This document shows, one piece after another, positions 12,753 to 35,693 of a stretch of DNA of 42,296 nt. This stretch comes from Deltaproteobacteria bacterium (GTDB lineage: Bacteria > Desulfobacterota > Desulfarculia > Adiutricales > Adiutricaceae). Position numbers and translations under genes: made by a program. The notes below the pieces were generated by a model. It saw only the letters and a list, made by a program, of their open reading frames with translations. It was not told the DNA's origin and ran no database searches. Every line of letters begins with the position of its first letter. The stretch's first letter is position 1. Location of the stretch: positions 1 through 42,296 of the forward strand of contig JAITII010000073.1 in the NCBI GenBank assembly GCA_031279515.1, in the 5' to 3' direction.

Positions 12753-12971
12753 ATGACCCGCGAAGATCTTATAAAACTCGAAGGCCGCGTCACCAATACC
12801 TATGGTGACGGACGCATGGAAGTGGAAACCGTAGACGGTGTGCGGATAAGAGCCATGCTCTCCGGTCGCTTGAAACGCTTTAAAATAAGGGTACTTTTAG
12901 GTGATCGGGTGGAAGTTGCGGTCTCTCCATACGATCCTACCCATGGCCTCATTACCTACAGGTTGAAATAA
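12753..12971 (+). CDS. infA: Translation initiation factor IF-1
   Basis: A 72-residue OB-fold protein that binds the 30S A-site during initiation. The N-terminus MTREDLIKLEGRV and the C-terminal GDRVEVAVSPYDPTHGLITYRLK match IF-1. The central part is divergent (RIRAMLSGRLKRFKIRVLL instead of the usual hisGkmRknyIRil). The start was moved from an upstream in-frame ATG (12681) to 12753. The upstream ATG would fall at the predicted transcript start, whereas 12753 has a ribosome binding site (AAGGAG) and gives the family N-terminus. It is a single-gene unit bounded by its own promoter and terminator. Confidence 0.92.
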   Translation: MTREDLIKLEGRVTNTYGDGRMEVETVDGVRIRAMLSGRLKRFKIRVLLGDRVEVAVSPYDPTHGLITYRLK

Positions 12972-12988
12972 GCCCCCTTGGTTATTAA

Positions 12989-13025
12989 GGCCCCCCAGAG
13001 CGACGGCTCCGGGGCATTTTTTTTG
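12989..13025 (+). terminator. Rho-independent terminator after infA
   Basis: A GC-rich hairpin (GCCCCCCAGAGC, loop GAC, GGCTCCGGGGC) with two internal mismatches is followed by a run of eight T starting at 13017. It is 18 bp after the infA stop. Confidence 0.85.
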
Positions 13026-13076
13026 CTTTAGGCCCTCTTGCCTTTTTTAGCTAATTTATGCCCCTAAATTGGTGCC

Positions 13077-13148
13077 CTAGTCTGCCCACTAGTTTGCACC
13101 CTAGTTTGCCCACTAGTCTCCCCACTAGTCTGCGCCTTAGTCTTGGGG
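13077..13148. repeat. 12-bp CTAG-phased tandem repeat array
   Basis: Six units with an exact 12-bp period, consensus CTAGTCTGCCCA. CTAG starts at 13077, 13089, 13101, 13113 and 13125; the sixth unit begins TTAG at 13137. An open frame across it (13058-13240) is simply translated repeat and was not called as a gene. Confidence 0.9.
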
Positions 13149-21482: not shown

Positions 21483-21587
21483 TGGTGTATTGATTTTAAC
21501 AATGCCCCAAGGGGTGGTTATAATAATGGCCCAAAGGGGAAAAAGGACCTTATTTTAAGGTTAATATAATGGTCCAAGGCAAAAAAA

Positions 21588-21639
21588 AGCCCTTTTAAAA
21601 TTTTCGTTAAAAAAGCAAACGAAAAAATTTAAAAGGGCT
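21588..21639 (-). terminator. Terminator of the minus-strand H1-like gene
   Basis: Near-perfect 20-bp arms (21589-21608 and 21618-21638, ends GCCCTTTTAAA and TTTAAAAGGGC) form a long hairpin. Read on the minus strand it is followed by a run of eight T. It lies just after the minus-strand stop and between convergent genes, so it could also block read-through from creD. Confidence 0.75.
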
Positions 21640-21647
21640 AGAAAGGT

Positions 21648-22265
21648 CTACCTCTTTCGAGTCTTCTTGGCAAGCTTGGACATCCTATAGGCCCTGGCGC
21701 TCTTGAAACCCTTGGGGGTCTTAGTGGTTTTTGCCTTAGGGGCCTTAGTGCTTTTTACAGCCTTGGGGGCCTTGGGGGCCTTTGCAGCCGGCGCCTTTTT
21801 GGCCGAGGGCGGGTATTTAATCTTGGTCTTCTTATACCCGTGCCTCTTCAAGATGTCATAGACAGTTGTGAGGCTGATGTCGTGACCCAGGTAATCCTGC
21901 AACTGCTGCTGGATCTCTGAGCCCTTCAACCTCTCTAGCTTGCGCTGTCCGTTGAAAAAATTTTCCAGGATCTCGGCTTCCTCTTGCGGAGTCATGAGCT
22001 TGCGGCGACCGCTGCCCAATTTTTCCTTCCGCCTTCTTGGGCCGGGTGAGCCGCCTGCCTTGTATAACATTTGCATTTCCGTCCGGTATTTATACACGGT
22101 GCGAGCGTCAACATTCAAGAGATGGGAGATCTGGGCAACACTCAGGTCAAATTCAGCGCCCAGGATAACCGACAAGGCTTTCTTGAAATCTATGATGTAA
22201 CTGCGCTTGGAAAACTCATATGCAAAAGAAAGGAGCCCATCTGAACAAACAAAAAGTTTAGCCAT
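21648..22265 (-). CDS. Helix-turn-helix protein with histone H1-like tail
   Basis: A 205-residue, strongly basic protein. Residues 39-63 (FDLSVAQISHLLNVDARTVYKY) form a first helix-turn-helix. Residues about 92-144 (MTPQEEAEIL onward, then LKGSEIQQQLQDYLG and ISLTTVYDILKRHGY) form a second winged-helix domain. The order resembles the N-terminal DNA-binding half of IS630/Tc1-type transposases, but there is no DDE catalytic domain. Instead, residues 145-205 are a tail with 20 lysines and 4 arginines, no acidic residue and KAPK/KTPK repeats like the histone H1 C-terminus. A GGAAG ribosome binding site and a near-consensus promoter lie upstream and a long terminator downstream, so it is a functional single-gene unit. 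It is probably a nucleoid-associated or regulatory DNA-binding protein. Confidence 0.8.
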   Translation of the reverse strand: MAKLFVCSDGLLSFAYEFSKRSYIIDFKKALSVILGAEFDLSVAQISHLLNVDARTVYKYRTEMQMLYKAGGSPGPRRRKEKLGSGRRKLMTPQEEAEILENFFNGQRKLERLKGSEIQQQLQDYLGHDISLTTVYDILKRHGYKKTKIKYPPSAKKAPAAKAPKAPKAVKSTKAPKAKTTKTPKGFKSARAYRMSKLAKKTRKR

Positions 22266-22327
22266 AGTTAACTTCCATTATCTTTGATTTTACACCGCTA
22301 AAAAAAATATAAACCAAAACATATTTT

Positions 22328-22356
22328 ATTATAAACTGGATCGATCTAAATTTCAA
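22328..22356 (-). promoter_or_regulatory. Sigma-70 promoter of the H1-like gene
   Basis: On the minus strand: TTGAAA (22356-22351), 17-bp spacer, TATAAT (22333-22328). The predicted start near 22321 gives a leader of about 56 nt before the ATG at 22265. The spacer contains the palindrome GATCGATC. Confidence 0.75.
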
Positions 22357-23080
22357 GAAAAAACAAAAAATAAAATACGTTTTTTTGTTATGTTATTTAT
22401 TAATATTTAATAAAATTATTATTTATTGTACTATTTATAAATATAAATTATACTAATATTTCCTATATGTAATTAAGATATTTTGCAAAATTTTTACCCC
22501 GCTGGAAAAAAATTTCTTTTCCAAAAAATTACCAAATTTTCCACAAGATAGGGGTATTTACTTTTTTTTAAAGGCTAATTTGTCCCTTTTTCCGGATTAT
22601 TTTTACTTAGCTTATATTTCTTGACTGGCAACAATAACTTTTCTAATTATGTGGAAACTTTTCAAAGAAAAAATATACCAAAAGGTTCAAGTTTTGTTGA
22701 TTTAATTCCCAAATGCCTAAAAAATTTTTTTTGGGAAGTTTTTCTAGTATCAATGCCTTTTTTTAAAACAAGCCTTCCGTTTTTGATTCATATAGATGCT
22801 ACAATTTCACCTGTGAAAAAAAGGTATTTTTTGCCCTTTGGGACTAAGATCCCCCCAGATAAAGTGGTCCATAGCGTTTTTTTAAAAACAACTAAATTTC
22901 TTATTCCTAAAGGCGGCTCAAAATCTTATTTGACTTTAAATAAGCCTAAGCGGCCCTAGCGGCTTTGGGAAAAAAGGGGGGCAAGATTTACCCTAAAATA
23001 AGGGCCTCAAACTAAATTTGCCTAAAATCTAAAGTAAAGCTTTAGGTTTTTACAAATAAAACATTGCAGAGGGGCTAGAT
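22357..23080. other. AT-rich gene-free block between the H1-like gene and hemB
   Basis: Positions 22357-22620 are extremely AT-rich with long A and T runs. A 112-codon frame starting with TTG at 22621 has no ribosome binding site and no family-like sequence and was not accepted. No clear terminator for hemB was found; a short CCCT/AGGG stem near 23000 lacks a T-run on the minus strand. Confidence 0.5.
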
Positions 23081-30437: not shown

Positions 30438-32804
30438 ATGGCAAGCCTAGAAGGCGCCAATTTGGGTGTGCGGGACGAGGCTAGCCCTTCCCCCTTAGGC
30501 GGGCCCAAACCCAGTGATAAAGAACAGGTGGCCCTGTTAAAGCAGGGCTTACACCAGTTCATTGTCACCATGAAGAATATGGCCCTCTACCCAGAAACCA
30601 GCCAGACCAACCTCCAGGCCTCCTACCTACTCCACAATTGGCTGATGGATTATTTTTCCAAGTATCCTGGGCCTTTAGTTCTGGTAGTTTTAAAAGATAG
30701 CCTCACCACCGAGGGGGATGTGCCTGTCTACACGGAAAAGCCCAATGAACAGTATTTGGCATTTCCTCTTTTTAGAGACGGCATCCAATCCATTATTTTC
30801 GAGCCCAATATTACCGAAGAGGAGCTAAGGGCCTTCCTCTATATAATGATCCGCTTCAAAACCACCACAGAAAGTGACCACGACGATATAGTCACAGTCA
30901 TGTGGGAGACGTCCTTTAACAATATCAAATACGTCATAGCCGATGAGTACGAGGAAGTAGGGCCGGAGTTTGACACCAATGCCCTTGTCTGTTCCCGCCC
31001 TCCAATAAATAAACCTGACATCGACGCCCCCTACCAGGCCACAGCCCCGGTGGAAGCGGAGGGCGCAGCTCCTGTGGCCAAATCCATAGGCTCTCTTTTT
31101 GCCCTGGCCGAGACCTTAGACTTTTCCTTTGCCCCTGGCGGCAAAGATGGCAGAGTCAAAGACCCCCATGCAGACGGGAAACTACTGCCCCCGGAGCCTG
31201 AAGAAGATGATGATGAAGATGGCTTCGGGCCCTTCCAAAGTAGCACCAATATCCATGATACCCCGGAAGAGATACCGGCTAATTTCGCTGACGATGCCCT
31301 GCCCGACAGAATTCGCATGGCCAGGACCACGCCCCGAGAAGATGATGATTTAGACAGTCTCATGGGTTCCGGAGGCTTTGGGAAAAAAACTGGCACAGGA
31401 AATGGCAATGGCCCTGGCAATGGCAATGGAGGCTCAGCCTCATCTGCTGCCTACGGAGAGGCAGCAGATGAAAATAGCGATGCCATGGATTATTTGGATT
31501 CCGACGAGGACCCCTCCAATGTGGTCACAAGCCCCTTTGGGGGCGCTCTCCAGGACTTGGATCTCTCCTCACTTTCCATGGACGAGTCCTTTAACACCAA
31601 TAGTGACATAGAGGCTGTAGTTACCCTGCCGGATGAAGAAAGAGTGGAAGTGGATAAGGATATCCTCGCCAACAGAGCCAATAGGCTCAAATTCTGGGGG
31701 CTTTCTTCCAGGGAGATTAAGCAGATAGCGGCCTTAATCCAGTGGGATGAGACCAGGGCCAAGTCGTCATCAGTTCTTTCTTTCATGCTGGTCCTCTTAA
31801 AATCGCCCACTTTAAAGAGCTCTCACAAGCAGGCTATAGTCAACTTCCTCACAGAAGAATTTAAGCTCTCTTTGAGTAAGCTGTCTTTGAGCCATATGAA
31901 CAAGTTTTTAGCCGATCTGCAGGCTATTGCAGGTTCCCCTTCCCTGCCCCTCATACCTTCCATCAATAATGACCTCAAAAATAATATAAATAACCCAGAA
32001 TTTCTCGCACTCTTGTGCGAGCCCAGTATTACTGAGGAGAGTGTAAACTCTATCTACGAGGACCTTCGCTATTTTCTCTATCAACTGCCCCCTTCCAGCC
32101 TCTTTATCCTGGCAGAACTCTTACCCCAGGTAAAGACCCTAAGGCTAAAAAAGCTTTTTATTGAGCTCATTGCCTGGCAGATTCCCCGCTCCGAGGCCTT
32201 GGCAAAGCTTCCTCCCCTTTTAAACGAGTGGGCCATCTTGGAGCTTATTTCCATCTTGAGGGCCATGCGAATTAGCCTTCCCGTCGGGCTCATTACGGTA
32301 TTTTCCCACCACAATTCCGCCTCTGTCAGAGAGCTCACTGCCCGTTATGTCCTGGAAGAGGACCCAGACAACCTCAACCCCATAGCCCACCTCATAGTGG
32401 ACAAGGATGTGAGGATAAGAGAGCTTGTGACCCCGCGCCTTGTAAGGCGCCGGGACCCCTCTGTGGAAGCTATCTTAAAAAAGTTTATCTCTGAAAGTTA
32501 CCAAAGAAAAGAAAACTCTAGGCTCATCTTAGGCTACTACCATTCCTTTGGACTGACAGCCAGTTACGTCTCTGTATCCTTTCTCACAGAAATCTTGATG
32601 AAAAAAGACCTCTCTTCCCTCTTTGGAAGTTCTAAACAATACCATAGGGTAGGAGCTGCCTTAGCGCTTCTCTTGATGCCTGCCTCCACAGGCTCCGACG
32701 CGATAATCAGTAACGCTTCTAGGAGCGTTTTTAGATCTGTGCGCTGGGCCTACAATGAGGCGAAAAAAATACTAGCCCAGGAGGAATTTGGCATAAATGG
32801 CTGA
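30438..32804 (+). CDS. Large unknown protein paired with HD-GYP (HEAT-like helical C-terminus)
   Basis: A 788-residue cytosolic protein without signal peptide or membrane helices. Residues about 30-165 form a helical/beta domain (MALYPETSQTNLQ..., DSLTTEGDVPVY, ITEEELRAFLYIMIRF). Its pattern is echoed in the N-terminus of the next protein (HQPNNKLFQENL, RGRMFINNQKY, LTDEDIVAFIRTL). Residues about 180-410 are a low-complexity linker rich in aspartate, glutamate, glycine and asparagine (GNGNGPGNGNGG). Residues about 430-780 are helical with HEAT-like repeats (VRELTARYVLEED, VRIRELVTPRLVRRRDP). It overlaps the HD-GYP gene by 8 bp. The function is unknown; it is probably a scaffold or regulator of that enzyme. 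Confidence 0.75.
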   Translation: MASLEGANLGVRDEASPSPLGGPKPSDKEQVALLKQGLHQFIVTMKNMALYPETSQTNLQASYLLHNWLMDYFSKYPGPLVLVVLKDSLTTEGDVPVYTEKPNEQYLAFPLFRDGIQSIIFEPNITEEELRAFLYIMIRFKTTTESDHDDIVTVMWETSFNNIKYVIADEYEEVGPEFDTNALVCSRPPINKPDIDAPYQATAPVEAEGAAPVAKSIGSLFALAETLDFSFAPGGKDGRVKDPHADGKLLPPEPEEDDDEDGFGPFQSSTNIHDTPEEIPANFADDALPDRIRMARTTPREDDDLDSLMGSGGFGKKTGTGNGNGPGNGNGGSASSAAYGEAADENSDAMDYLDSDEDPSNVVTSPFGGALQDLDLSSLSMDESFNTNSDIEAVVTLPDEERVEVDKDILANRANRLKFWGLSSREIKQIAALIQWDETRAKSSSVLSFMLVLLKSPTLKSSHKQAIVNFLTEEFKLSLSKLSLSHMNKFLADLQAIAGSPSLPLIPSINNDLKNNINNPEFLALLCEPSITEESVNSIYEDLRYFLYQLPPSSLFILAELLPQVKTLRLKKLFIELIAWQIPRSEALAKLPPLLNEWAILELISILRAMRISLPVGLITVFSHHNSASVRELTARYVLEEDPDNLNPIAHLIVDKDVRIRELVTPRLVRRRDPSVEAILKKFISESYQRKENSRLILGYYHSFGLTASYVSVSFLTEILMKKDLSSLFGSSKQYHRVGAALALLLMPASTGSDAIISNASRSVFRSVRWAYNEAKKILAQEEFGING

Positions 32805-34290: not shown

Positions 34291-34350
34291 ACTCCCCTTG
34301 AGGCTTATGCAGCTTTAAGGCAAGAGAAAAAAATTTTAAAAAAATTTAAG

Positions 34351-34468
34351 CTAGACCTCTAGCATCTAGCATCTAGCCACTAGCATCTAGCTTTACTAGC
34401 CTCTAGCCACCAGCTTTACTAGCATCTAGCATCTAGCATCTCGCCTCTTGCTTTACTAGTTATTCTAG
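34351..34468. repeat. 7-bp CTAG-phased tandem repeat array
   Basis: Units of CTAGCAT or CTAGCCA. CTAG occurs 13 times between 34351 and 34468. Exact 7-bp steps link 34359, 34366, 34373, 34380 and 34387, and again 34396-34403 and 34119-type offsets 34419, 34426 and 34433. The spacer AGCTTTACTAG interrupts the array twice and a variant GCTTTACTAG follows. It is not a CRISPR array: units are too short and there are no unique spacers. Confidence 0.85.
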
Positions 34469-34529
34469 CTCTCTTTGAGTCTATTTTGATTGTTACCTAT
34501 AAATTAGAGTCAAAAAATAAAGGGCTTGG

Positions 34530-34558
34530 GCTGGGAAATTCTCCCGGCGCCTTTTTTT
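34530..34558 (+). terminator. Terminator with a competing alternative hairpin
   Basis: GCTGGGA (34530-34536) pairs with TCCCGGC (34542-34548; one G-T wobble), followed by seven T at 34552-34558. Its 3-prime arm is also the 5-prime arm of a second stem, CCGGCGCCTTTTTT (34544-34557) with AAAAAAGGTGCCCGG (34565-34579), which has one bulge and one wobble. The two cannot form together. It probably ends the HD-GYP transcript about 240 nt after its stop. Confidence 0.6.
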
Positions 34559-34634
34559 CAAGCTAAAAAAGGTGCCCGGCTAAAAGGAAAAAAATTTTAA
34601 AATAGAGAGAAACCCCAGCCAAAAAAACCCAAAT

Positions 34635-34845
34635 TTGACAGCCCTTTCTGTGGCCCAGGCTAAAAATTATGCATGCCCATACCTTTTTGGAAAAGCCTGC
34701 GGCTTTAATATCAATTTTTCCCTTCTAGATGAGAAAATTCAATCTGTCAAATTATAGTCATTTGTCAAAAACATTTTTTCTTGCCCCTTACAAAAGGCAA
34801 ATTGACAGAAAACTTTTTCCAATTAATAAAATTTATTGATTGACA
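34635..34845. promoter_or_regulatory. Cluster of five TTGACA/TGTCAA boxes
   Basis: TTGACA occurs at 34635-34640, 34802-34807 and 34840-34845, and its reverse complement TGTCAA at 34745-34750 and 34763-34768. The flanks are similar (AATTTGACAG, CTGTCAAATT, AATTGACAG). The last copy is the -35 box of the promoter at 34840-34869. The others may be regulator half-sites or additional -35 boxes. Confidence 0.4.
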
Positions 34846-34869
34846 AAACGGCTCAAGGGAAAATATAAT
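34840..34869 (+). promoter_or_regulatory. Perfect consensus sigma-70 promoter
   Basis: TTGACA (34840-34845), 18-bp spacer, TATAAT (34864-34869). Both hexamers are exact consensus. Transcription would start near 34876, about 820 nt before the TonB receptor ATG; no gene was recognised in between. Confidence 0.75.
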
Positions 34870-35693
34870 TACGCATATTAACGATGTTATCGCAAAAACA
34901 CCTCACTCCAAACTTCCTCTAAACCCCGACCATTTTCTTTACTTGGTACCTTTGATTTGCAATACTACTTTATATTGTATTGTTTGTGCAGGCATGTGCC
35001 CAAGTCCACACCTCCTACTATGTCTTTGCGATGACACCTTTTAAATTTTGTCTCTTAGCCTGCACGCTTTGTAAAATCCCTCAAGTCAAGAACCCTTTAA
35101 AAAAATCAATTTTTATGGTGAAGACTTTTTTCCTAATCCCACCAGCTATTTTTAGTTTTATAAAGAGCTAATCTTAAACTCTGCAAAGAGCCGCAATTTT
35201 TTGCTTGATATTGTCGCCTCAGGGAAAACTATACCCTTTTTCCAAAGCTTTTTTAGACATATTGTTTTTTTAAAGGCATTTAAAAAAGATAATGTCTTCA
35301 AAAAAGCAATTAATTTTGGGGCAAACTAGGGCTGCGCCTCATTTACAAATCATGAGCGGACAATCTCTATCCCATCCATCTTTTCACCCTAGAGGGAATT
35401 TTTATCCCCGCCTTTAACCAAGGGTCGCTCAAAAAAAACTCATCAAAGGGCTGTGAAACAAATAAAGTAGCTTATGTCCTTTCTGCTTGCAAAATAAAAC
35501 CATGGAGAAAAGCTTTGGAGCCTAAATTCTGGGCCAATATTTAGGGCAAAAATGAATCAAGATAGCTTTAGCGTTTTAAATTGAAATACTGCCTACTTTA
35601 CCCAATTTGAGGCGTATCTTCTGGGCTACTGAAATATCAGTAAGGTTATGAATCGTAACTTTGATCTGTCCTCAAAAGAAACATGGAGAAAAA
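34870..35693 (+). other. Long leader or unannotated RNA region before the TonB receptor
   Basis: About 0.8 kb downstream of the consensus promoter and upstream of the receptor gene. A 63-codon frame starting TTG at 34980 lacks a ribosome binding site. No cobalamin, TPP or other riboswitch signature and no Fur-like box was recognised. A weak stem AGGG/CCCT followed by five T lies near 35220-35242. The region may be a long 5-prime leader or may encode a small RNA. Confidence 0.45.

Follow-up and report, generated by a model that had tools for sequence, protein, structure and literature searches.

Has a gene that joins the DNA-binding half of a transposase to a histone H1-like tail become a gene of its host, and what could its product do? 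The question is raised by a gene on a contig of a Deltaproteobacteria bacterium, probably from a termite gut (family Adiutricaceae; contig JAITII010000073.1), the whole 42,296 nucleotides of which were analyzed and are referred to here as the window. An earlier note on this DNA had proposed that the N-terminus of a transposase was domesticated into a chromosome-architecture or global regulatory protein.

The gene encodes an IS630 OrfA-like protein and is flanked by its own expression signals

The open reading frame starts with ATG, has exactly the limits given in Table 1, and encodes a product with a pI of 10.3. Residues 29-81 matched the Pfam profiles HTH_29, HTH_23, and HTH_17, and residues 68-153 matched HTH_32, HTH_33, and HTH_Tnp_Tc3_2; all of these matches (E-values of 6e-4 to 5e-5) are under the gathering cut-off yet mutually consistent. 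The NCBIfam profile for IS630 transposases, NF033545, matched residues 33-163 with an E-value of 9.5e-12 and a score of 45 bits, compared with a whole-protein cut-off of 100, and this match spans only positions 5-127 of the 299 positions of the profile. In alignments, the protein is up to 33-34% identical to OrfA proteins of the IS630 family (IS630-Tc1-mariner group) over ~165 residues and shares with them the order of the two helix-turn-helix (HTH) domains, a GGRR-type linker, and an RHGWRK-type end of the second HTH. In the bi-HTH part, the linker reads GSGRR, and a basic stretch, GPRRRKEK, is inserted. Both recognition-helix regions are kept, as are 21 of 32 conserved OrfA positions, which is fewer than in most OrfAs of intact elements; many of the replacements at these positions are conservative.

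In AlphaFold models (mean pLDDT of 65-66; pTM of 0.3), residues 25-69 and 93-141 are helical, residues 147-174 form a low-confidence coil, and a basic helix at 190-203 comes last. A fold search returned no significant match among solved structures; CENP-B, TnsB, IstA, and Mos1 were among the weak, non-significant matches, with CENP-B(1-129) ranking high (E-value of 0.18). Pfam, NCBIfam, the OrfA alignment, and the predicted helices bear out the earlier assignment of two HTH domains in the IS630/Tc1 order, and the profile match and alignments support that the gene is a relative of IS630 orfA and, thus, that it originates from a transposase N-terminus.

Table 1. Coordinates in the window of the tailed gene, its parts, and its flanking signals
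Feature	Position	Strand	Basis
Tailed OrfA-like gene, 205 aa	21648..22265	-	ORF, IS630 and HTH profile matches, composition
Bi-HTH part, residues 1-144	21834..22265	-	IS630 OrfA alignment and predicted helices
Lysine-rich tail, residues 145-205	21651..21833	-	Composition and tandem repeats at 21710-21789
Sigma-70-like promoter, TTGAAA-N17-TATAAT, 11/12	22328..22356	-	Consensus scan
Shine-Dalgarno sequence GGAAG, ~7 nt ahead of ATG	22269..22279	-	Sequence AATGGAAGTTAACTATG
Intrinsic terminator, ~20-bp stem followed by U8	~21579..21639	-	RNA fold; inverted repeat I3

The promoter, ribosome binding site, and terminator that had been attributed to the gene are all real sequence matches (Table 1). 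The terminator hairpin is located shortly past the stop codon, and the folded stretch has a free energy of -29 kcal/mol (z = -4.4), with 0 of 200 shuffles being equally stable. The AT-rich spacer upstream of the gene is ~0.8 kb long and contains several weaker promoter-like sites besides the 11/12 site; because such sites exceed those in shuffles (9 versus 3.5), the promoter carries less weight as evidence than the terminator does. The promoter is flanked by an imperfect inverted repeat of 15 bp (22316-22330 and 22369-22383). We rejected this repeat as a palindromic operator because 110 of 1,000 Markov-simulated sequences were as good, and the repeat is, therefore, not significant in AT-rich DNA. 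No Rfam family matched anywhere in the window.

The tail is rich in lysine and contains near-repeats with lengths that are multiples of three

Our recount of the tail composition agrees with that given previously: the 61 residues include 20 Lys and 4 Arg and neither Asp nor Glu, and the tail pI is 11.7. Among the six-frame open reading frames of the window, the tail is by far the most lysine-rich stretch of 61 residues (Lys minus Asp/Glu of 20 versus 14 for the next best). Using TRF, we identified overlapping near-repeats of 9, 24, and 27 bp in the tail DNA. Because all three unit lengths are multiples of three, the KAPK and KTPK blocks plausibly arose through in-frame duplication.

The earlier note had also raised the possibility that the tail came from a frameshifted DDE region; when the three minus-strand frames were translated, no DDE-like alternative frame was found, and this explanation was discarded. 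A tail donor elsewhere in the family was rejected as well, as the search returned only weak low-complexity matches. Among these was a Sel1-repeat protein (family genome G019, contig C20, ~12966-13106; L028/L122) with a K/A/P/T-rich C-terminal tail, KAPKAPKASKTARTPKAKTSKTPKSE. The presence of a comparable tail on this unrelated protein suggests that H1-like tails can arise independently within the family.

The relatives belong to two-ORF IS630 elements, whereas the tailed gene lacks the other transposon parts

Each relative that we read through is the OrfA half of a two-ORF IS630 element with an adjoining DDE frame, and none of them has the tail. The best relative in the same genome (contig C101; 31% identity) has a DDE OrfB directly downstream in another frame. 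The OrfBs of the relatives read through, within the family and beyond, are adjacent or overlapping and carry QDEARFGR...DGASSH...PPYSPELNP. Some close relatives come from Gx485_bin207 and Kf353_bin9, which are titled as Deltaproteobacteria MAGs; judging by the style of these names, both may be MAGs from termite guts and of Candidatus Adiutrix type (class Desulfarculia). IS630-type DDE domains occur at about six places in the genome with the tailed gene, and copies of IS630 reside on its contigs C94 and C101. Contig C4 of this genome (~64795-64914; L003) also encodes a solo first HTH of the IS630 type, 92 residues long and ending in a short basic stretch; this fragment has AT-rich codons (GC3 of 0.29), is close to a divergent open reading frame with CxxC motifs, and is probably a relic.

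Unlike a two-ORF IS630 element, the tailed gene has neither a DDE frame nor terminal repeats. In agreement with the earlier note, no DDE domain is encoded: the profile match covers the OrfA part only, tblastn with the OrfBs of the relatives against the window gave no orfB similarity near the gene on either strand, and the three minus-strand frames, followed through the gene to ~350 bp past the stop codon, contained no DDE remnant. The protein also differs from IS630 OrfAs in lacking the FKK region, in which the OrfA and OrfB frames overlap, and has the H1-like tail there instead. The reservation that homologues might simply be orfA halves beside a DDE frame, therefore, applies to the homologues but not to the tailed gene itself.

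At their ends, several elements of the relatives have roughly ATTCTAATTTGCNNNCAAGAT in common (read ATTCTAATTTGC...), and we found no ends of this IS630 type in the window at ≤3 mismatches. Of the inverted repeats around the gene, the best is only marginal, being equaled by 10 of 200 Markov-simulated sequences, and does not resemble the relatives' ends. The gene DNA is single copy in the genome, where the only further match, of 37 bp, falls inside the tail, although one copy by itself does not exclude an element. A recently mobile IS or MITE ending at the inverted repeats I1/I2 was rejected based on the weakness of these repeats and the single copy. Similarly, we rejected a phage or plasmid origin, as there were zero matches in phages and only one distant OrfA-like match among plasmids, on a plasmid of Polaromonas that has a transposase gene downstream of the match.

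The tailed gene has host-like codon usage and was added at a variable junction

The GC3 of the tailed gene is 0.65 (0.62 in the HTH part and 0.71 in the tail), which is in line with neighboring host genes, compared with 0.35-0.42 for IS630 genes and 0.29 for the solo OrfA-like fragment of the same genome. Both parts of the gene have this host-like GC3, whereas spacers of the genome fall to 14-30% GC. Calculated against the ribosomal-protein and elongation-factor region, the codon adaptation index (CAI) of the tailed gene was 0.647, which is within the range of host genes in the window (0.58-0.72), while IS630-type genes of the genome had values of 0.52-0.57. Recoding the protein with average local codon usage gave the same CAI (z = -0.5); the gene, therefore, resembles an ordinary host gene and not a very highly expressed one, and codon bias does not support that its product is very abundant.

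The gene is located between hemB and creD, which are separated by 1.6 kb in this genome. Two genomes of genus g10 have convergent hemB and creD only 38 and ~140 bp apart and without the tailed gene between them, while another relative has a transporter-like gene at this junction, supporting that the tailed gene was added at a site that varies. The pair dnaJ-hemB is kept across much of the family, and glmM-creD is present in several genomes. A genome of the same genus, which is 78% complete and of very different composition, contains creD and ~750 bp downstream without the gene. In family genome G007 (contig C129; L059), a degenerate second hemB with seven stop codons and a dnaJ fragment lie beside an intact hemB-dnaJ, apparently as remnants of a decaying tandem duplication. 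Elsewhere in the window, which has several spacers of >500 bp, the 1.37 kb at 34291-35660 contain no convincing gene, and a 788-residue open reading frame without a Pfam or NCBIfam match (30438-32804) is located directly upstream of an HD-domain gene.

Homologues with the same tail, for which the earlier note had suggested a search, were found neither in the 36 other genomes of the family, including the 78% complete one, nor in 62 other genomes of the class, ~395 sampled genomes of the phylum, or two scans of GTDB contigs. Hence, the tailed gene is known from one genome assembly of 148 contigs. With no orthologue found in these genomes, the evidence for selection and function is indirect. The proposed domestication is, thus, supported indirectly by the gene's own signals, the absence of a DDE domain and IS ends, host-like codons, the single copy, and the empty site in relatives, but not by conservation of orthologues.

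Precedents and possible functions

AlgP/PhaF of Pseudomonas are DNA-associated proteins with a disordered K/A/P-rich C-terminal domain likened to histone H1 (PMC9239181), and HupS/HupB of Actinobacteria combine a DNA-binding domain with a long disordered lysine-rich C-terminal tail (PMC11229371). A disordered, lysine-rich C-terminal tail without acidic residues is common to these types and the tailed protein. However, the helical N-terminal domain of AlgP is unrelated to the bi-HTH part here, and the KPAA array of AlgP is regular and, at 154 aa, longer than the 61-aa tail; the head of HupS/HupB is HU, whereas the head here is a transposase HTH pair; neither an HU nor an AlgP N-domain was found in this head, which matched HTH/IS630-type profiles only. 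CENP-B and other pogo-derived genes are examples of host use of the DNA-binding domain of an IS630-related transposase (PMC7386202). The tailed protein would resemble CENP-B in being a host-retained DNA-binding domain of an IS630-related (ITm) transposase, but CENP-B is eukaryotic and pogo-derived, keeps a DDE-derived domain, and has no H1-like tail. We regard AlgP, HupS/HupB, and CENP-B as precedents and claim no membership in these groups. In the part of the literature covered, we found neither a bacterial IS630 OrfA with an H1-like tail nor a paper on such a protein.

Several alternatives to a domesticated DNA-binding protein have to be weighed. A regulator acting at a single site, for instance on its own gene or on hemB/creD, with the tail serving as a charge tether of little global importance, would fit the bi-HTH part, the AT-rich upstream spacer, and the inverted repeat around the promoter; given that this repeat is not significant, we consider such a regulator unlikely. 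A former OrfA could also have been kept as a trans-acting repressor that binds IS630 ends and competes with active transposase, with the tail only raising affinity. The IS630-type DDE domains elsewhere in the genome and the retained recognition-helix regions are consistent with such a repressor, but identity to the nearest OrfA of this genome is only 31%, making recognition of common ends doubtful, and the locus has no IS630-type ends, so that we judge this explanation somewhat less probable still. The least probable of these alternatives is that the gene is a non-functional relic of an IS630 insertion with a tail that is an accident of repeat slippage. Its occurrence as a singleton in one assembly, with no detectable orthologue, fits a relic, while the intact frame, host-like GC3 in both parts despite AT-rich spacers, the directly flanking promoter and strong terminator, and the lack of a single acidic residue in the tail speak against it.

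Based on these considerations, we favor with moderate confidence that the gene is a lineage-specific, domesticated IS630 orfA, in the product of which the HTHs would bind DNA and the tail would bind non-specifically. In this scenario, the OrfA half of a two-ORF IS630 element would have lost the DDE half and terminal repeats and settled between hemB and creD, and the linker region would have grown into the H1-like tail, probably as short blocks of K/A/P/T codons were duplicated in tandem and in frame. By the logic of IS630/Tc1 transposases, the two HTHs may recognize an extended site, and the disordered polycation may contribute charge-driven affinity of a non-specific kind or may bridge or condense DNA, in the way proposed for AlgP or HupS. 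The product is likely a DNA-binding protein that is specific to the lineage and either nucleoid-associated or regulatory; the role in chromosome architecture or global regulation envisaged in the earlier note would be plausible by analogy with AlgP and HupS.

More tentatively, and with considerable doubt, the tail-bearing IS630 half may represent a new class of nucleoid-associated proteins in a gut lineage and a bacterial counterpart of CENP-B-type domestication. If true, joining the sequence-reading half of a transposase to a polycationic tail grown from repeats would be a simple route to new bacterial chromosome-binding proteins, and the repeat structure of the tail makes this step of their origin testable.
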